Positions 8,894-20,327 of a stretch of DNA of 22,262 nucleotides are shown here, one piece after another. Numbering within the stretch: position 1 is the first letter of the stretch; each line of letters opens with the position of its first letter. The position numbers and the translations under genes are program-made. This stretch comes from a virus. The notes below the pieces were generated by a model, which was not told the DNA's origin, did no database searches, and saw nothing but the letters and a program-made list of their open reading frames with translations. The stretch covers positions 1-22,262 of IMG/VR virus record IMGVR_UViG_3300032053_000586. One strand, 5' to 3'.

Positions 8894-9685
8894 ATGTTAA
8901 CTAAGCTAGAAGAACTGGAATTAGAGTATAGTAATTGTACTTTATGTACTCTATGTAACCAATGTCAAACGTGTATTTTATTAAAAGAACGTCCACGACA
9001 TGTTGTTTTTGGTGAAGGTAATCCCCATGCAGATATTATGATAATTGGTGAAGCGCCAGGTAGACTAGAAAGTGAAACGGGTAAACCATATCAAGGAGCA
9101 GCTGGCGTTCTTATAAACACATTCATAGATAATGTATTCCTAGATAGATATAAAGACATATATATAACAAACACTGTATGTTGTAGACCAACTATGGAAG
9201 TAATCAATGATAGGACAAAAGAAAAATGTATTGGTAACCGACCCCCTACTAAAAAAGAATTACTAGCTTGTAGACCCAGATTATTAGAAACTATTTATTT
9301 AGTTGACCCCCTATTAATAATAACAATAGGTAAGATACCCTTAACAACTCTTTGTGGTAAAAAATCAATATCTATGCCGGCTATTCGTGGACAAATGCAA
9401 ACGCTACTTTTACCAGGAAGACATATCAAAATTCGGTACAGCGTTTTTCCAATGTATAGCGCACCTTTTTTACTTAAGACTCAAGATAATCGTCCAGAAG
9501 GGCCATGGGGTAGAACCCAATTTGATTGGGTTAAGGTATGTCATATAATAGACTACTTACGTAATGTTTATTATGGAATTCCACAACCTAACAGAGAGGA
9601 TATGGCAAATGACCGTAGAATCGAAATTGACAATGGCGAAAAAAGCAGCAGAAAAGTATCAAAAAAGCGAAGAAGAACTGAGTAA
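8894..9685 (+). CDS. Uracil-DNA glycosylase superfamily protein (family 4-like) with altered motif
   Basis: This 263-residue protein has the family 4 layout. A cysteine-rich N-terminus (C15, C18, C21, C24, C27) is followed by motif A IIGEAPGRLE (about 50-59), a GKPYQGAAG segment, and the CCRP...ACRP pair (C97 and C126) that normally completes a [4Fe-4S] cluster. About 15 extra residues with another Cys (C112) sit between that pair. The second active-site motif, normally HPAxLL-like, reads MYSAPFLL, so the usual His is Ser. Family 4 enzymes excise uracil from DNA; the changed motif makes the activity uncertain. No clear ribosome site precedes the ATG. The last 25 codons overlap the next gene in another frame and encode a very basic tail. 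Confidence 0.82.
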   Translation: MLTKLEELELEYSNCTLCTLCNQCQTCILLKERPRHVVFGEGNPHADIMIIGEAPGRLESETGKPYQGAAGVLINTFIDNVFLDRYKDIYITNTVCCRPTMEVINDRTKEKCIGNRPPTKKELLACRPRLLETIYLVDPLLIITIGKIPLTTLCGKKSISMPAIRGQMQTLLLPGRHIKIRYSVFPMYSAPFLLKTQDNRPEGPWGRTQFDWVKVCHIIDYLRNVYYGIPQPNREDMANDRRIEIDNGEKSSRKVSKKRRRTE

Positions 9686-11932: not shown

Positions 11933-11944
11933 AATTGGAAACAA
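11921..11944 (+). other. Small hairpin directly before the DnaB-like start
   Basis: CCAAT and ATTGG (11925-11929 and 11934-11938) can pair around TAAA, with TTGT and ACAA extending the stem after a two-base bulge. It spans the stop of the DUF932-like gene and ends one base before the ATG at 11946, covering the only GGA that could act as a ribosome site. This may tie translation of the helicase to that of the upstream gene. Confidence 0.35.
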
Positions 11945-11945
11945 C

Positions 11946-13424
11946 ATGACTGACGAATTGCGTCTTTTAACTAAAGTCATTGATGGGGGGGATTTAAGAC
12001 CTTTAATTAAAGCTAACATTACAATAGACCATTTTAAAACAGAACAAGGGCAGTTCTTATTTCGACTTATAAAACGCTATCATGATAATAAAGCAACATT
12101 TGGACTTGTTCCAGAACGCGCATATGTTTTAAAACGACTTCCCAAATTTCCTTTTGCTCCTGAAGAACGAATAACTCTAGAAGCAGTACTCCAAGAATTC
12201 AAACTAGGCTATCTGAAAGAAGAATTACTTCGTTTGTCCGATCATATTCAAGATTATAAGGACAATCCTGAAGAGCTATTAGACCATGTAGGAAAAATTC
12301 ACCATTCACTATCTAAATCTAATAGAATTAGTGAAGACCATATTTTATCAGCAGCTGTTGGACAAATACGAGAAAGATATGAAGTTAGAGAGAATAAAAC
12401 AGGATTACTAGGAATTCCATATCCTTGGGAACCTTTAAATGATGAAACAAATGGATTATTAAACGGTGAATTTATTATTTTTTATGGTAGACCTAAATCT
12501 CAAAAAACGTTCCTTTTATTATTGAGCGCTTATCATGCTTATGAAAAAGCCAATCGTAGAATATTAATTTGCACTAGAGAAATGACACCTATACAAATTA
12601 TGGACCGCTTTATATGCATTATGATTAACGCTCCATATGATGAATTTAAAAAGGGGCTTCTTCATACTATTCCAGTTCCAGAAGGTGGAACCATGAGAGA
12701 TAGATTCATGGACATTATGAATTCCATGTCTGGTGATGAAGAGGTTTGTAAATTTGAAACTGGAAGAAACAAAAGTGTAATTATTACAAGTGACCGGGCG
12801 GATCCTAAAGGTGGGGGGGTTCGTGGTTTACGAAGAAAAGTATTAGACTATAAACCTGATGTTTTATATGTGGACGCAGTGTATCTTATGACTGATGACA
12901 GAGAAGGTAAACAATCTATTAAACATCATAATCAAGCAGCTATTTCTCAAGATTTAAAAAATTTAGCTTTAGATTTTAATATCCCTGTCTGTGGTACAAA
13001 TCAAGCTAATCGAAATAGTGAAGATAAACCTGGTAAATCAGTATCAAATATTTCCTTCTCAGATTCTTATGGACAAGATTGTGATCTTGCAGCAGAAATT
13101 ATTAAAAAACCAACAGGTTTATATACTAATAATTTAGCTATAGTATTTACTGCTTCAAGAGAAACTACTTTAGCAGGATTTGCACTTCATGGTAATGCTT
13201 GTACAGATTTTTCATGCATAATGCAACCAAATAGAAATGGAGAGGGTATAACTCAAGTAGATAGTATGGGCAATATTTTACTTACCCCAAAAATATTTAG
13301 AAACCATGAAGATATACTAGATTTTCTTAATGACAGACCTACTACAGATAAAATACAACCTTCTGCTATAGGAGGTTTAAACGCAGCTCATGCGTTTAAA
13401 GAGGCTAGAAGAAGTAAGGGGTAA
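11946..13424 (+). CDS. DnaB-like replicative DNA helicase
   Basis: This 492-residue SF4 hexameric helicase is expected to unwind DNA at the fork. A helical N-terminal domain (about 1-125) resembles the DnaB N-domain. The RecA-type core has Walker A GRPKSQKT (181-188, K187), the ICTREMTP segment equivalent to the DnaB S-x-E-M region, Walker B VLYVD (D310) and a GTNQANR sensor (350-356). A GTG at 11901 would add 15 residues but lacks a ribosome site and overlaps the previous gene; the ATG at 11946 is preferred although its own ribosome site is weak. The primase gene follows after four bases, the classic helicase-primase pairing. The RPKSQKT loop differs from the commoner GxGKT but resembles other phage helicases. 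Confidence 0.88.
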   Translation: MTDELRLLTKVIDGGDLRPLIKANITIDHFKTEQGQFLFRLIKRYHDNKATFGLVPERAYVLKRLPKFPFAPEERITLEAVLQEFKLGYLKEELLRLSDHIQDYKDNPEELLDHVGKIHHSLSKSNRISEDHILSAAVGQIRERYEVRENKTGLLGIPYPWEPLNDETNGLLNGEFIIFYGRPKSQKTFLLLLSAYHAYEKANRRILICTREMTPIQIMDRFICIMINAPYDEFKKGLLHTIPVPEGGTMRDRFMDIMNSMSGDEEVCKFETGRNKSVIITSDRADPKGGGVRGLRRKVLDYKPDVLYVDAVYLMTDDREGKQSIKHHNQAAISQDLKNLALDFNIPVCGTNQANRNSEDKPGKSVSNISFSDSYGQDCDLAAEIIKKPTGLYTNNLAIVFTASRETTLAGFALHGNACTDFSCIMQPNRNGEGITQVDSMGNILLTPKIFRNHEDILDFLNDRPTTDKIQPSAIGGLNAAHAFKEARRSKG

Positions 13425-13428
13425 ATAG

Positions 13429-14427
13429 ATGCGTGATATTATTGAAAAAGAAGTACGAAGAAAACTTAAATATATTAGATTTTCTGGACCGGATAATATA
13501 GGAGGGCCTTGCCCCTTTCATAAAGAAGGGCAAGAACGACGAGCCTCATTCTATATCAATATAAATTCTGGGGTTTACTACTGCCATACCTGTCATGCTA
13601 CGGGTACTTTTATTCAATTCTTAAAGAGGTTAAACACTCCGTCAACTTATATAGATAGCATTCTAGAACATATAGGCACACCTTTAAAAACCTTTAAGAG
13701 TCCCGCTACTTACATTTTTGAACACAAACAACACTTTCTAAACGAAGGACTTTTAGGGGTATTTCAATATTGTCCAATTGATTTAGTTAATAAAGGATTC
13801 GACTCTGAGTTACTTTATAAGTATGAAATTGGATTTGATCGTGAATATATGAGAATTACGTTCCCCATACGCAATTTAGAAGGTCGATTAGTGGGCATTT
13901 CAGGAAGAAGTGTAATACCAGATGCGTTCCCACGATATAAAGTTTATAAATCTAAAGATATCTTACGTTTTGCATCAGATGATCCTGACACTATTACTAA
14001 ATATGAATCGTATGAAATACATAATCATAATTACTTATGGAATAGCCATAATGTATATCCTAATGCTTTTATGGGTAAACTTAAACAAGTGATTATAGTT
14101 GAGGGATATAAAGCGTGTCTTTGGCTTATTCAACAAGGCGTAACAAATGTTATGGCTCTTCAAGGAAGTCGTATGACTAGAGAACAAGAATTAATTCTTA
14201 CTAGTATAGGAGGGGACGTAATTTTATTCTTGGATAACGATAAAGCTGGAAAGGAAGGAACTTTAAATACAGGACAAAAACTTCGTAAAAGAGGCGTAAC
14301 TGTTTATTGTACAAATTACCCAAATCATTGTAATGAAGAAACGCAACCCGACAATCTAAACAAATCAGATTTATTAAGTGTTCTTAACACTACACAAAAC
14401 TGGCATCAATGGAGGTCTAATGTTTAA
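13429..14427 (+). CDS. DnaG-type DNA primase
   Basis: This 332-residue primase makes RNA primers at the fork. The N-terminal CHC2 zinc domain has C28, H31, C52 and C55 (CPFH...CHTC). A linker leads to a catalytic core with FPIRNLEGRLVGISGR (about 145-160). The Toprim domain has VEGYKA (E225) and LDNDKAG (D269, D271), the metal-binding acids. No separate C-terminal helicase-binding domain is visible; the protein is much shorter than bacterial DnaG (about 580 residues), as is usual in phages. AGGGG precedes the ATG. Its end overlaps the next gene by eight bases. Catalytic residues are all present. Confidence 0.92.
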   Translation: MRDIIEKEVRRKLKYIRFSGPDNIGGPCPFHKEGQERRASFYININSGVYYCHTCHATGTFIQFLKRLNTPSTYIDSILEHIGTPLKTFKSPATYIFEHKQHFLNEGLLGVFQYCPIDLVNKGFDSELLYKYEIGFDREYMRITFPIRNLEGRLVGISGRSVIPDAFPRYKVYKSKDILRFASDDPDTITKYESYEIHNHNYLWNSHNVYPNAFMGKLKQVIIVEGYKACLWLIQQGVTNVMALQGSRMTREQELILTSIGGDVILFLDNDKAGKEGTLNTGQKLRKRGVTVYCTNYPNHCNEETQPDNLNKSDLLSVLNTTQNWHQWRSNV

Positions 14428-15550
14428 AAAAATACCGTTTAGTCAACGAATAATGGGTTATACAACCCGTAGATCTGAAAGTTCTGGTCGTACTGGAGGA
14501 AGTGGAGGTGGGAACCTCAGTATTAGATGGAACAACAGATGGGCACCTCCACAAGGAGTATTGACAACAGGCAGGCTTTTACCCGGAAACTATATAAATT
14601 TTGAAGGAGAGGAGTCTGAGTATTTTCATTACGTGACGCATTTTGTATCTCGATCTAAAAGAGAGCTCATCTGTTCTAAAAAATATCAAATAGTTTCAAA
14701 TTGTGGAAAAGACGAATTAGTAGATATAGGAGGGAAGTGCCTTGCTTGTGAAGAGAAAGCAAAAGGAGCAGAAGATATTTCTTGGAGTCTAAAACACGTA
14801 TTTAATTGGCTACATTTAGCCAATTATCATAAGGTAGTAGCAATAGATAAAAAAAATGGAAAACTTTTAAGATATTCTAAGGGACCTAAAGAAGGAGAAC
14901 AAATATTTAATGATAAACCCTGTACAGGAAGAAATTGCGAACATTGCCAAGCTAAACTAGATAAATTTTTCGGTAATAAATGCCATTGGAGTTTGGGTTC
15001 TGGTCACCTTAATGAACTTACGGGCTTTGTTATGGATATAGCTCAAGACTGCTCTAATTGCGGAGAGGGGAGACTAAGTATTTCTGGATATGAATGTGAA
15101 AATTGTGGGCATTTAATAATAGATATTAAAACCACTAAAATGAGTGATGAAGAAATTAGAAGTTATACCTCTCGTAAAATTCAATGCAATGAATGTAAAT
15201 ATATTGGGGTGTCCATTATGCAAACGGAGTGTTCTCATTGCCAAGATCCTATGCCCCTATCTATATTTGATTGTGAATTAGAAATTAAACGACAGGGGGA
15301 AGGAACAAACTCTAGTATTCAAATACCTAGAAGAAAAAAAATAGACGTAGAAACTTATGTAGATAGAATACCTAATTTAGAAAAGCTTCTTGTGCCCTTT
15401 AATTTTAATCAAGTATTCGCGCCAGATACTTTTGAAGCTCAAGCAAAAATACTCGGAATTAGAAATCCCTATGGATCCGAGAATCCTAATGCTGATGAAC
15501 ATTGTAAAAATTATAAAAATACCACTTCGTCTTCTGAAATTCCTTTTTAG
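14420..15550 (+). CDS. Putative single-stranded DNA-binding protein with zinc ribbons and IPF tail
   Basis: This 376-residue protein starts at an ATG with GGAGGT just upstream, inside the primase end. It has a basic, Gly-rich N-terminus. CxxC pairs follow at C107/C110 and C173/C176, and two consecutive zinc-ribbon patterns lie at C211/C214/C226/C229 and C256/C259/C271/C274. A proline-rich KLLVPFNF segment leads to a polar tail ending SSSEIPF. The last residues match the C-terminal tip of bacterial SSB (IPF), which recruits replication partners. T4 gp32 is a zinc-containing SSB, though with only one site. Position between primase and polymerase supports the call. No OB-fold motif can be proved by eye, so a different zinc-binding replication factor remains possible. 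Confidence 0.55.
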   Translation: MFKKIPFSQRIMGYTTRRSESSGRTGGSGGGNLSIRWNNRWAPPQGVLTTGRLLPGNYINFEGEESEYFHYVTHFVSRSKRELICSKKYQIVSNCGKDELVDIGGKCLACEEKAKGAEDISWSLKHVFNWLHLANYHKVVAIDKKNGKLLRYSKGPKEGEQIFNDKPCTGRNCEHCQAKLDKFFGNKCHWSLGSGHLNELTGFVMDIAQDCSNCGEGRLSISGYECENCGHLIIDIKTTKMSDEEIRSYTSRKIQCNECKYIGVSIMQTECSHCQDPMPLSIFDCELEIKRQGEGTNSSIQIPRRKKIDVETYVDRIPNLEKLLVPFNFNQVFAPDTFEAQAKILGIRNPYGSENPNADEHCKNYKNTTSSSEIPF

Positions 15551-15623: not shown

Positions 15624-17591
15624 ATGGCTATACAGTATATACCTCCTGTAACATGGGTAGATACCCCAGAAGAATTTGATAAGTTCAAAAAAAGAGTTTT
15701 AGATACCAAAGAATGTGCTTTAGATACTGAAACAACCGGATTAAATATAGTATCTGATCATATTCTTTTTTGGTCAGCTTGCCCTGATGAAAATAGCCGA
15801 TTTTGCTTTTCTGCAGAAATGCTAGTTCTTTTAGACCAGGAATTGATTAATTTACCTTATATAAAATGGTATTTTACTAATCAAAATTTTGATCTTAATA
15901 TGCTGCAGAATTCGGGTGTACGCACGCCTACAGGAAATTGTTATGATACTTTAGTTATGGATTGGTTATTTGATGAAAATAGACAAGGACGTCACGGACT
16001 AAAAGAAACAGCAAGAGATCATATTGGATTACATATGCGATCCTTTAAAGAAGCTTTTTTGGGTAGTCATAGAGGTGAAACTATTCAAGAACGTTTACTA
16101 AGAGGAATGGAAAACGATTTTATGGGTGCCATTTCTTATTCCTCTTTGGATGCTTGGGCAACTTTTAAAGTTTTTCATTTTCTAAAAGGCGAATTAAAAA
16201 AGTTAACTAGTTTAGATGGCGTACCTTTATGGGATCACTTCATAAAAATAGAGATGCCTTTCACACGAGTTCTTTATAACTGTAGTAGAAGGGGATTTCT
16301 AGTAGATGTGGGATATCTAGATGACCTAGGACCCAAAATTCAATACGAACTAGATAGCATTCAAAAACAAATTAATAAGATAGCAGGTAAAGAAATCAAT
16401 TCTAGAAGCCCTATGCAACTTAGAGAACTATTTTTCGATAAATTGAGGCTAGATCCAGTAAAAAGAACTGCAGGTGGAGCAAGCGGCAATAGACAATTTT
16501 CTACTGATGCAGAAAGTTTAAACATATGGGCAGAACAAGGAATTGAGCCAGCAAAATTAATGGTTCGTTATAGAAGTTTGTCTACCACTAAAAATACATT
16601 TATCGATGGGCTTAAAAAATGTATAAGTAAAGACCATAGAATACATCCTACACTTAATCAGCACATAACAGTCACTGGTCGTATAAGTAGCAGTAATCCC
16701 AATTTAATGAACATACCCAATCCAGAACACGATCAATTTTTAATTAGAGCAGCTTTTATTTCTGATCAAGGAAAACAACTAATAGTTTCTGATTATAAAC
16801 AGGGAGAGATGAGACTATTAGCCCATTATTCTCAAGACGAAAATATGATAGACGTAATACGAAAAGGGTTGGATATACATACTGGAACTGCCAGTCTTAT
16901 GTATAATTACAAATACGAAGATATAGAAGCCGCCTTAAAAAAGAAAAAGGGTGCAAATAAAGACCCGAATATTATTTTATCGCCCTTAGAAAAAAGAATG
17001 TGTGATACTAGGAGGTTCAGTAAAGCAGTGGGCTTCGGTCTAAATTATGATCAAGGACCTGGAGCACTGGCTAAGACTTTAGATATTGAAGTTCAAGAAG
17101 CTAAAAAACTAATAGAATTGTATTTTAAACCCTATCCTAAAGTTAAGCAATTTATCTACAATGTACATTCATATATTTTAGATCACGCCATGGTTGAAAC
17201 TATATTAGGTAGACCCCGCAGGTTCCATGAGTTACATGAGATAGGGCGCCGTCTAGATACAATAACTAGATGGGAATTACCGGGTTCTGCTAAATCTAAT
17301 TTAGCTCAAGCAGAACGCCAAAGTGTAAATTCTATAATTCAAGGTTCCATGGCAGATGTAGCTAAACTAGCGATGCTTAATTGTGAACACGACTTACAAT
17401 TAGAATCACTGGGTGTACAGATGCTATTGCAAATTCATGATGAATTAGTTTTTGAAGTTCCTGAAGAAAATATAGAGAAGTCTAAACCAATTATTAAACA
17501 ACATATGGAACATCCACTTAAAAAAGATCTTCTTGTACCATTAGATATAGATATGGGAACCGGGTATTCTTGGGCTTCTGCTAAAGGATAA
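15624..17591 (+). CDS. polA: Family A DNA polymerase with 3'-5' exonuclease
   Basis: This is a 655-residue replicative polymerase. The exonuclease domain (1-185) has ExoI LDTET (D34, E36), ExoII NQNFD (D90) and ExoIII YSSLD (Y172, D176), all acids present. The 5' nuclease domain of bacterial Pol I is absent, as in T7. The polymerase domain has TGRISSSNPNLMNIP (351-365), motif A VSDYKQGEMR (D390), motif B RRFSKAVGFGLNYDQ (R464, K467, F471, Y475) and motif C QIHDE (D606, E607). Motif B has Asp where the usual Gly follows the Tyr. Phe at 471 is the Pol I-like, rather than T7-like, residue for sugar discrimination. AAGGAGG precedes the ATG. Confidence 0.93.
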   Translation: MAIQYIPPVTWVDTPEEFDKFKKRVLDTKECALDTETTGLNIVSDHILFWSACPDENSRFCFSAEMLVLLDQELINLPYIKWYFTNQNFDLNMLQNSGVRTPTGNCYDTLVMDWLFDENRQGRHGLKETARDHIGLHMRSFKEAFLGSHRGETIQERLLRGMENDFMGAISYSSLDAWATFKVFHFLKGELKKLTSLDGVPLWDHFIKIEMPFTRVLYNCSRRGFLVDVGYLDDLGPKIQYELDSIQKQINKIAGKEINSRSPMQLRELFFDKLRLDPVKRTAGGASGNRQFSTDAESLNIWAEQGIEPAKLMVRYRSLSTTKNTFIDGLKKCISKDHRIHPTLNQHITVTGRISSSNPNLMNIPNPEHDQFLIRAAFISDQGKQLIVSDYKQGEMRLLAHYSQDENMIDVIRKGLDIHTGTASLMYNYKYEDIEAALKKKKGANKDPNIILSPLEKRMCDTRRFSKAVGFGLNYDQGPGALAKTLDIEVQEAKKLIELYFKPYPKVKQFIYNVHSYILDHAMVETILGRPRRFHELHEIGRRLDTITRWELPGSAKSNLAQAERQSVNSIIQGSMADVAKLAMLNCEHDLQLESLGVQMLLQIHDELVFEVPEENIEKSKPIIKQHMEHPLKKDLLVPLDIDMGTGYSWASAKG

Positions 17592-17707: not shown

Positions 17708-18277
17708 ATGGATCACCAAGAATTAGTAAATAAATTTGCTACAGAAATAAAGCGCCCAAAACGGTATACTCGTATGCTACTTGGCACGCTTACAAAAATA
17801 ATAAAAACGGCTTTGTTAGAAGGACACGACGTATTACTTAGAGGGATTGGGGAATTTAAGAATTCCTATTATAGTGGTGGATGGGGGCGGCATCCCAGAA
17901 CTGGGGAACCTCTACGAATCCCTCCCAAAAGAAGGGTTATGTTTTACCCTTCGCGTAGATTAAAATGGGATATAAAAGAATCAGCTCAATACTTTAGAGA
18001 AGATGACATTTCAGCTAGACGCTGGGGTATAGAGGATTACCACTCTATACCCCTTCCTCTTATAAAAGAACGAAAAAAGAGGAGCACTTTGGAGAGAAAA
18101 ATGGATAAATATGCTGTAGAAATAGACCCCGAAAAAGTACTAAAAGAAAAAAAAGCAAGCTCTAAAAGTAAAGAAATGGACCCGGATTCTAATATACCAC
18201 TAGATCCAGATCTTGGAAGCGAGCCCTATGAAAAGGAACCTAAATGGCAAAAAAGAAAGCAGAAGAAGTTGAAATAA
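17708..18277 (+). CDS. HU/IHF-family DNA-bending protein with a long tail
   Basis: This is a 189-residue protein. Residues 1-91 form an HU-like domain: an N-terminal helical half, GIGEF, then GRHPRTGEPLRI, with the DNA-intercalating Pro at position 63 as in bacterial HU, and VMFYPSRRLKWDIKE as the last strand and helix. Ordinary HU is about 90 residues. Here a further 98 residues follow, very rich in Lys, Glu and Asp, probably disordered. HU proteins bend and wrap DNA and help initiate replication and recombination. No clear ribosome site precedes the ATG. A 116-base gap upstream holds nothing else recognisable. The gene overlaps the recombinase by 34 bases. Confidence 0.85.
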   Translation: MDHQELVNKFATEIKRPKRYTRMLLGTLTKIIKTALLEGHDVLLRGIGEFKNSYYSGGWGRHPRTGEPLRIPPKRRVMFYPSRRLKWDIKESAQYFREDDISARRWGIEDYHSIPLPLIKERKKRSTLERKMDKYAVEIDPEKVLKEKKASSKSKEMDPDSNIPLDPDLGSEPYEKEPKWQKRKQKKLK

Positions 18278-19566
18278 AACTTACACGCCCACCTAAAGTA
18301 GATACCGATGTTTTAATTGAATCCATTATTGCAGATTTAGGTAGTTTCGGAGTGGTACTACAAAAGGGATCCGAATTAGAAGGTCGATTCGACCTCCGAA
18401 GACCTAGTGGTATTACCTCTTTAGATATAGATTGCGGTGGCGGATTACCTTCAGGTGGATTATCACAAATAGCGGGACCAGACGGAGTTGGAAAAAATTT
18501 ACTAGTATACAATTACTTCTCTCAAGTTCAAAAACTTTACGGTGATCATACATGCATTTTTATGCTATGTATGGAATTTCCTTTTGATAAAATGTATGCA
18601 AGAAAAATTGGATTCAAAGTACCATTTTCTGATTACGAGATACATACCGAACAACGCCGAAGGCAAATTTATGAAGAAAACCCACTTACTAAAATAGAGA
18701 TAGCAGAACTTAAAAGCTCAACAGGTTGTGGAGAATTCCACATCCTTAGAGGACCATCAGAAGCTAATTTACAGGCTGTAGTTACTCTAGTAGACTCCAA
18801 TGCTTATCAGATAGGGGCTATTGACTCCTGGGACTCCATGCTAACCACTTCAGAAGATGAAGTGGACTTAGGAGACAACCCTAAAATCGCCTCTGCCTCT
18901 GGCATCCAGAGCCTATGGATGAAGAAAATTCAAGGTGCTCTAATGCCTCGTAAAAGATGCCCTTCATGTTTCAGTATGGATTTGAACTTTAAAAAGCACA
19001 ACGAAGGAAGTTATAACTACATATGTAAATGCGGGTGGAAAGGCCGTAGGCCTTTTCTAGAAGAGAATGAGACAACAATCATTGGTATTCGGCAAGTAAG
19101 GGCTAACTTATATAAAACAAGTATGAGACAAAGAGAATGGAAAGTAGGCGGGGCTTGGGCATTAAAACATGGAAAACTAATAGATATTCAACTTAGACCA
19201 GGAGAGATGTTATATTATAAAGATTCCAAAGATTCTGAAAATTCTAGAACTAAAATAGGAAAAGAGCTAGTATACGAAATAACTAAGGGAAAAGCTGGAA
19301 CTCATGAAGGTAAGGTAGGATCATTTAGGTATTACTTTGATCCTCCAAAAGTAGATATGGAGGACAATATGATAAATTATTGTACAGTTAAAAATATTAT
19401 ACACCGTGGAGGGGGTGTATATTATATCGGAGAAGAAAAGTTCTCTAGTAAAGAAGCCCTACAAACAGCAATACGCGAACCAAAATTTAAAAGTGTTTTA
19501 TGGAACATGATATTAAAAGACGCCGGTCTTCTTCACATTCGTTATGCAGATATAGAAACAAAATGA
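18244..19566 (+). CDS. RecA/UvsX-like recombinase with zinc-ribbon insert
   Basis: This 440-residue strand-exchange ATPase has a Walker A GPDGVGKN (78-85) in which the usual Thr/Ser after Lys84 is Asn. Walker B is GAIDSWDSML (D194). A core segment after the insert reads TTIIGIRQVRANLY and GGAWALKHGKLIDIQLRPG, the RecA Q-R-N and GG-alkhg block. Between the helix at 220-235 and that block lies a 30-residue zinc-ribbon insert with C239, C242, C261 and C263. The protein is longer than RecA (about 350). It would coat single-stranded DNA and promote strand invasion during recombination-dependent replication, working with the SSB-like protein and nucleases around it. The start is an ATG inside the HU gene end, with AAGGAA upstream. 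Confidence 0.85.
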   Translation: MAKKKAEEVEIKLTRPPKVDTDVLIESIIADLGSFGVVLQKGSELEGRFDLRRPSGITSLDIDCGGGLPSGGLSQIAGPDGVGKNLLVYNYFSQVQKLYGDHTCIFMLCMEFPFDKMYARKIGFKVPFSDYEIHTEQRRRQIYEENPLTKIEIAELKSSTGCGEFHILRGPSEANLQAVVTLVDSNAYQIGAIDSWDSMLTTSEDEVDLGDNPKIASASGIQSLWMKKIQGALMPRKRCPSCFSMDLNFKKHNEGSYNYICKCGWKGRRPFLEENETTIIGIRQVRANLYKTSMRQREWKVGGAWALKHGKLIDIQLRPGEMLYYKDSKDSENSRTKIGKELVYEITKGKAGTHEGKVGSFRYYFDPPKVDMEDNMINYCTVKNIIHRGGGVYYIGEEKFSSKEALQTAIREPKFKSVLWNMILKDAGLLHIRYADIETK

Positions 19567-19641: not shown

Positions 19642-19806
19642 ATGGGAAAGATGCTAAAAAAGTACATAGAAGCAGATAAAAAACTTGTACGCCTACGAGA
19701 ACTCCAAATAGAACCGGAAAGTGCTGAAGAAAACGATCTCCTAGAGGAATTAGATAGTTTATGGTGGCAGCTAACTCCAGAAGAGAGGGATGAAGTCTCG
19801 CTTTAA
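19642..19806 (+). CDS. Small acidic phage protein (54 residues)
   Basis: This short frame starts at an ATG six bases after AAGGAA. Its TAA shares one base with the next ATG (TAATG). The protein has a basic helical N-terminus (MGKMLKKYIEADKKL) and an acidic second half ending LDSLWWQLTPEERDEVSL. Similar short proteins with an LW..LTPEER motif recur in phage genomes without a known role. Ribosome site, coupling and composition all support it as a real gene. It fills most of the 239-base gap after the recombinase; the 75 bases before it hold nothing clear. Confidence 0.68.
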   Translation: MGKMLKKYIEADKKLVRLRELQIEPESAEENDLLEELDSLWWQLTPEERDEVSL

Positions 19807-20327
19807 TGCAATTAGAATTAACTATCCAACCTATTGAATTTGGAAAGAAATGCTCTAATTGTAAGAAGATACGAAAAACTATTTACTATACTATCCAGCA
19901 AGATAAAAGCAATCTTATCAATTTCTTCTTATGTGATGAATGTCAAAATAAGGCCTTCTCTTTTTCCTTCTCCCCTAGAATAAGCCCCAATATAACTAAG
20001 AAGGAACGAAAAAGGCAAATAAAGATATCTCAAAATTTAGAAAAAAAGGTAGCTCTAGATGTCCAAGGAAAGGTACAACCAGGTTCTGGAAATCAAGATG
20101 CTAAAGCTGATATTCGAAAAATAAATAAGTGGAGAATAGAACATAAATATACAAACAGTAATATCGGTTATCGTCTTTTAGTAAATAGCTTATCTTCTAT
20201 AATACGGCATGCTAACTCATCTGGAGAATGGCCAGCACTAGTAATAAACTTTCGTCGTATCAGTAAGGTATTTACAGTTTTACCTTACGAACTATTCCTA
20301 TTCTTTGTGGAGAAGTTTGATGATTAA
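19806..20327 (+). CDS. Zinc-finger PD-(D/E)XK nuclease, possible junction resolvase
   Basis: This 173-residue protein has an N-terminal CxxC...CxxC zinc finger (C16, C19, C43, C46). A basic linker leads to a compact nuclease-like core: E79, GSGN (93-96), ADIRK with D102, then RIEHK with E112 and K114, and a following amphipathic helix with a conserved-looking GEWPALVINF strand. The order E..GSGN..D..ExK matches the PD-(D/E)XK fold used by Hjc-type Holliday junction resolvases and phage repair nucleases. Start and stop are coupled to both neighbours. Exact substrate (junctions, flaps or ends) cannot be told from sequence. Confidence 0.65.
   Translation: MQLELTIQPIEFGKKCSNCKKIRKTIYYTIQQDKSNLINFFLCDECQNKAFSFSFSPRISPNITKKERKRQIKISQNLEKKVALDVQGKVQPGSGNQDAKADIRKINKWRIEHKYTNSNIGYRLLVNSLSSIIRHANSSGEWPALVINFRRISKVFTVLPYELFLFFVEKFDD

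Follow-up and report, generated by a model that had tools for sequence, protein, structure and literature searches.

What is the protein encoded between the primase and the DNA polymerase of an uncultured phage, and why does it combine several sets of paired cysteines with a C-terminal end in S-S-S-E-I-P-F? The window analyzed here is the whole 22,262-base virus record IMGVR_UViG_3300032053_000586. The same protein is found at 100% in a longer IMG/VR copy, IMGVR_UViG_3300031999_000094 (37,739 bases). The gene is a single open frame that starts with the ATG at 14420 and ends with a stop codon at 15548-15550. Very likely, its product is a single-stranded-DNA-binding protein (SSB) that the phage uses for its own replication, built on a predicted gp32-type OB fold and ending in a tail with a putative partner-recruiting motif. 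The gene and its surroundings are as follows.

14420 to 15550, plus strand: gp32-like single-stranded-DNA-binding protein with candidate zinc inserts, 376 amino acids (open reading frame, gp32 fold match and 15 distinct syntenic relatives)
14411 to 14415, plus strand: GGAGG, a likely ribosome-binding site as read from the sequence
11943 to 13424, plus strand: DnaB-like helicase, context (PF03796, 1.8e-18; phrog_19)
13429 to 14427, plus strand: DnaG-type primase, context, overlapping the start of the SSB gene (PF01807 and PF13155)
15624 to 17591, plus strand: family A DNA polymerase (PolA), context (PF00476, 1.7e-103)

The SSB gene follows the helicase and primase genes and precedes PolA, after which HU-like, RecA/UvsX-like and Cas4-like proteins are encoded. 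The order primase, SSB and PolA is present in all 15 loci whose records cover both flanks of the gene; the record of the sixteenth locus examined starts inside the SSB gene.

Other genes of this region have features of their own. The replication module includes a uracil-DNA glycosylase superfamily protein (PF03167, 5.1e-24; window positions 8894-9685), which is syntenic in relatives. The RecA/UvsX-like protein (18244-19566) carries a Cys4 zinc-ribbon-like insert (RCPSC ... CKCGWKGR) in a region conserved in the six relatives examined. A zinc insert is unusual in a RecA-type recombinase. Between the RecA-like and Cas4-like genes lies a small cysteine-knuckle protein (19806-20327), whose place is conserved in the loci that reach that far. 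The PolA gene is interrupted at one same place (query residues 469-473) in four of six loci checked, by about 280 to 1080 bases (L012 10353-10650, L014 10447-11096, L022 10590-10869 and L019 10626-11707), and is uninterrupted in L008 and L020. These interruptions, which have no Rfam match at the gathering threshold, look like introns or similar insertions.

The relatives of the SSB-slot protein were reached through its neighborhood. An IMG/VR search with the single window protein matched only itself. With the polymerase used as the route, two more loci with a protein in the SSB slot were found, at 36% identity (E 9e-88) and 24% (E 2e-22). Profiles from these two loci enlarged the set to 18 IMG/VR contigs, and two final scans added none. 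Removal of duplicates left 16 distinct members including the window, that is, 15 distinct relatives. L007, whose protein is identical to that of L008, and L021, which equals L022 from its first residues with its start cut off, were dropped. Repeat contigs were dropped as well: L001, L002 and L006 are the window's own phage, L003 and L036 repeat L012, L004 and L016 repeat L015, and L033-L035 and L037-L042 repeat contigs already in the set.

Outside this set, the window protein gave nothing above the curated cut-offs of Pfam, PHROGs and NCBIfam, and nothing up to E 10 in a PDB sequence search with the protein alone. A PDB search with a 9-row profile returned zinc fingers only, at E 0.03 or worse, and these were attributed to composition. 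A tblastn search of a phage collection (50,697 records) with five members had no match, and a pattern-based search of 84,980 bacterial and archaeal species gave 86 and 18 pattern matches and zero relatives. One of nine members matched phrog_9721, annotated as 'single strand DNA binding protein', over the OB region at E 0.011, which is a lead only. The best match in the BFVD viral structure library is A0A6J5LF59 (37% identity, E 2.6e-22), an uncharacterised protein of an uncultured Caudovirales phage. It is almost certainly a family member, with 247 residues versus 376 in the window protein. The phage proteins that rank below it in this library are largely unnamed, with a few annotated as SSB.

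The T4 protein gp32 binds single-stranded DNA cooperatively and possesses an acidic C-terminal domain and a LAST motif. An AlphaFold model of the window protein on the 16-row alignment (pLDDT 83.0, pTM 0.80) is of low confidence at residues 21-35 and 354-376. When this model was compared with known structures by VIA-align, gp32 entries took the top places: 2a1k_A with a Z score of 9.8 (187 residues, 4.9 Å), 1gpc with 9.4 (189 residues, 4.7 Å), 8gme_A with 8.1 and 2atq_B with 7.9. The alignments to these T4/RB69 entries span 181-189 residues. The best non-gp32 entry scores 3.6, and the protein is therefore regarded as a gp32-like OB-fold SSB. An earlier model on nine rows had the same four gp32 entries at the top, with Z 6.4-7.3 versus 3.9 for the next. 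Foldseek against the PDB also ranked 1gpc first, but at E 8e-3, and no match fell under 0.001. Two parts of the model are listed here.

14438 to 14479, plus strand: predicted N-terminal helix, amino acids 7-20, at the place of the cooperativity domain of gp32 (DSSP of the model)
15254 to 15340, plus strand: last OB strands, amino acids 279-307, with the conserved P-L-S-I-F-D ... G-E-x-T-x-S (P279, D284, G293 and S298 invariant in 16)

The original prediction had made its SSB identity depend on an OB fold in the predicted structure. Such a fold is present in the AlphaFold model and is closest to gp32, and the location of the gene in a replication operon points in the same direction. Sequence profiles do not connect the protein to gp32. 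PF08804 (gp32), which was matched in all seven gp32 proteins used as a positive control, is absent among the matches listed for the window protein and nine members scanned, and appears in none of the 16 records. A comparison with a gp32 profile by hhalign gave a probability of 2.2 and P 0.022, with the alignment over the OB region. The LAST motif in its strict pattern is absent in the window member. It is found in 5 of the 16 members versus 2.2 expected by shuffling, and in two of the seven gp32 controls; this was judged weak, and the motif was rejected as evidence of gp32 kinship. Judged by its modeled fold and its gene place, the protein is gp32-like, and it stands outside formal PF08804 membership.

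The cysteines of the protein are a second distinctive element. Up to three four-cysteine sites had been predicted, two of them as adjacent zinc ribbons. The cysteines are indeed conserved in the 15 relatives. However, as many as four candidate metal sites are seen in the sequences: a His-Cys3 site resembling that of gp32, two Cys4 sites and a loop of the Cys3-His type. The His-Cys3 site had been taken for a Cys4 site, and the Cys3-His loop had been overlooked.

14639 to 14749, plus strand: candidate zinc site 1, gp32-like H74/C85/C107/C110 (HCCC in 8 of 16 members)
14921 to 15007, plus strand: candidate zinc site 2, C168/C173/C176 with H189 or H196 (conserved in members)
15050 to 15241, plus strand: insert bounded by the outer candidate Cys4 site C211/C214/C271/C274 (complete in 15 of 16)
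15095 to 15196, plus strand: inner candidate Cys4 site C226/C229/C256/C259, within the outer one (complete in 15 of 16)

Site 1 has the order H-C-C-x2-C, as in the single zinc site of gp32, whose ligands are given as His64 and Cys77, 87 and 90 in PMC3012046. T4 gp32, with its one zinc site, had been contrasted with the window protein; the contrast holds for the number of sites, but the order of the first site is that of gp32, so the protein is better described as gp32 with additions. In seven of the 16 members H74, C85 and C110 are gone together, and C107 remains in six of the seven. Since these seven members form one clade, a single loss event is assumed instead of seven. L015, which does not align properly at site 1, was assigned to neither group. 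The equivalent ligands in the seven reference gp32 proteins, as read by eye, are kept in three and lost in four. With this loss and the loss in one clade here, site 1 is considered dispensable in both groups. An N-terminal Cys4 site including C95 was rejected, and C95 lies in a short insertion that is missing from most relatives. In site 2, C168, C173, C176 and H196 are present in all 16 members and H189 in 15; either His may serve as the fourth ligand.

Fourteen of the 16 members have four cysteine knuckles in the insert at residues 211-274. The two exceptions bear on how the knuckles pair. L014 has two knuckles only, in the first and fourth positions, which correspond to the outer Cys4 set alone; their spacing is as in the window, with the first lying 22 residues past the His of site 2 and the IFD motif ending 13 residues past the fourth. 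L015 also has two knuckles only, but in the second and third positions, i.e., the inner set alone, again spaced as in the window at 37 and 67 residues past the His-equivalent. Side-by-side pairing breaks both half-sites in each of these two members, and nested pairing leaves one whole site in each; nesting is therefore favored. As judged from the sequences, one Cys4 site probably lies inside the other, and the adjacent zinc ribbons of the original prediction are contradicted by both L014 and L015. The insert (model residues 216-274) resembles the zinc ribbons of MCM2/MCM4 weakly, with Z 2.5-2.6 over 47-48 residues.

The C-terminal end of the protein raises the question of partners.

15479 to 15547, plus strand: disordered C-terminal tail, amino acids 354-376 (pLDDT under 50)
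15539 to 15547, plus strand: I-P-F tip (recurs in L019 as IPF and in L018 as IAF)

PMC5872125 describes the bacterial end DDDIPF as a hub that serves more than 14 partners. The predicted bacterial SSB-style terminus is borne out at the very end of the window protein and by its recurrence, but the window tail is weakly acidic. The last 20 residues contain three D/E and two K/R, and one acidic residue stands beside the tip (TTSSSEIPF); several relatives have 6-10 D/E in the same stretch. An I-[P/A]-F end is found in three of the 16 members (SEIPF in the window, ADDGIPF in L019 and TDDDIAF in L018) and is missing from 13. In most of the remaining members, the protein finishes with a different short motif of acidic and aromatic character, for example DPDYNE, DPDFSE, EADYDK or GKANFDK. 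Among 603 other distinct ends of open reading frames (120 amino acids or more) from the loci examined, an [ILVY][PA]F end occurs once. The enrichment has a Fisher p value of 5.6e-5, or 0.045 when L018/L019 are counted once and the window is excluded because its tip was the reason for choosing it. The tip is present in the family more often than by chance.

The single such end among the 603 belongs to a bacterial-type SSB on the contig of L017 (PF00436, 3.3e-39; L043 2076-2564, the record of L017). This protein ends in DDDDIPF, and a P-loop kinase and an RRM protein are encoded nearby. The gp32-like protein of L017 itself ends in DEADFES. PF00436 has no match on the window protein and none in the record of L006, which encodes the same protein. 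It is found in one of 12 records searched, which may be incomplete, and nine of the 12 have neither kind of I-P-F tip.

The origin of the tip was examined in a tree for which every row had been shortened by its last 12 residues and L015 left out (L015 was trimmed to its first 425 residues in one analysis step). The window groups with L008, L009 and L010, none of which is tipped (support 100/100), and L018/L019 are separate. The tip label needs two changes on this tree, and one change is found in none of 200 bootstrap trees. A single origin was rejected by constraining the tipped members to one clade (p-AU 0.00096). Of most interest in this family is that a gp32-like core has thus gained an SSB-type tip by convergence.

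How could such a protein work? From the fold and the operon, we infer that the OB core would coat single strands opened by the neighboring DnaB helicase and pass the coated strands to the adjacent primase and PolA. The His-Cys3 site, if it binds metal, would hold the core together in the way known from gp32. Next to the OB fold, the Cys3-His loop and the nested Cys4 pair may form a rigid lobe held by zinc, which would enlarge the surface for DNA or partner binding. The short motif at the end of the disordered tail may recruit partners, as suggested by the recurrence of the tip and by the case of phage HK620 as described in PMC5928155. This end motif would have become a bacterial SSB-type I-P-F in the window member and independently in one other lineage.

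An interaction role of the tip is plausible on the sequence evidence, since the tip recurs in two lineages. By analogy, a phage partner is equally as possible as a host partner. The I-P-F tip may thus recruit a phage-encoded protein, for example the downstream zinc-bearing RecA/UvsX-like protein, and the likeness to bacterial SSB would then be convergence on a similar pocket; we give this a substantial chance, somewhat short of even. According to PMC5928155, the HK620 SSB binds the phage's own Sak4 recombinase through its NDYPPF end, and when the six C-terminal SSB residues were missing, Sak4 no longer joined SSB-coated DNA. Helicase, primase, polymerase and a RecA-like protein are all encoded by the window phage itself, and relatives without I-P-F mostly carry other acidic-aromatic ends (EADYDK, DPDFSE), as if tuned to partners. 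However, the three relatives nearest to the window have other tips, with DnaB, primase, PolA and RecA still syntenic and 51-68% identical. In addition, DDGIPF and DDDIAF are the bacterial tip sequence, and one related phage encodes a true bacterial-type SSB with DDDDIPF.

The host side of the question leads to a broader and more tentative proposal, which we hold as possible rather than probable. This lineage of uncultured phages would replicate with a gp32-type SSB with one zinc site nested in another, onto which a bacterial SSB tip has been grafted at least twice, and a third lineage would carry a separate, tipped bacterial-type SSB. In this view, the tip would act as an exchangeable plug through which a filament of the gp32 type gains access to host repair and restart proteins that bind SSB.

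It is rather unlikely that the window's I-P-F end is functionless, arising by chance or drift in a relaxed tail. The poorly acidic stretch before the tip, as opposed to L019 and L018, the different ends of the nearest relatives and the p value of 0.045 would fit such an origin, but the tip recurs independently in L018/L019 in an acidic context, and the one comparable end among the 603 is that of a real SSB. Least probable is a zinc-ribbon accessory factor (a primase or polymerase cofactor, or a transcription factor) on a gp32-like OB fold: the heavily zinc-bearing insert, its weak MCM likeness and the weak zinc-finger profile matches would suit it, but the place between primase and polymerase is conserved. 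Moreover, PF00436 was found in one of the 12 records searched for it and PF08804 in none of 16, so that most of these records, some possibly incomplete, yielded no other SSB of those two types.

A replicative gp32-like SSB thus remains the preferred reading, and there is good support for a family of such proteins in uncultured phages, marked by zinc inserts of an unusual kind and by a tail tip that can be exchanged. The choice of partners by SSB tails is usually seen as fixed, with phage-type tails for phage replisomes and I-P-F for bacterial ones. Related phages with different SSB tails and the same replication genes are natural pairs for testing the role of the tip. Similarly, the zinc sites lost or kept across relatives form a natural series for finding the role of each site. 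Fast-changing SSB tails and surfaces may also matter for sensing by host defence, because phage SSBs trigger several defence systems according to PMC10732053.

Among the titles and abstract openings listed from the open-licence literature, none described a gp32-like SSB as having additional zinc sites or as ending in I-P-F. A parallel for the tip is the HK620 SSB, on which a bacterial-like end, NDYPPF, recruits a recombinase; it is a different phage SSB, and the accessible part of its description has no zinc-site inserts (PMC5928155). Bacterial SSB (PF00436; E. coli SSB-Ct DDDIPF) shares the last three residues with the window protein, and acidic residues right before the tip are seen in L019 (DDGIPF) and L018 (DDDIAF) but not in the window (SSSEIPF). 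Bacterial SSB is a homotetramer. Unlike it, the window protein belongs to a different OB-fold family and has candidate zinc sites and a weakly acidic tail. With gp32 of T4/RB69, it shares the OB-fold core, the order of the His-Cys3 site, the predicted N-terminal helix, the disordered tail and, from gene order, a probable role in replication. In contrast to gp32, it has no significant sequence-profile match, LAST motif or acidic tail; instead, it carries an insert of about 64 residues with two candidate Cys4 sites, a Cys3-His loop and an I-P-F tip.
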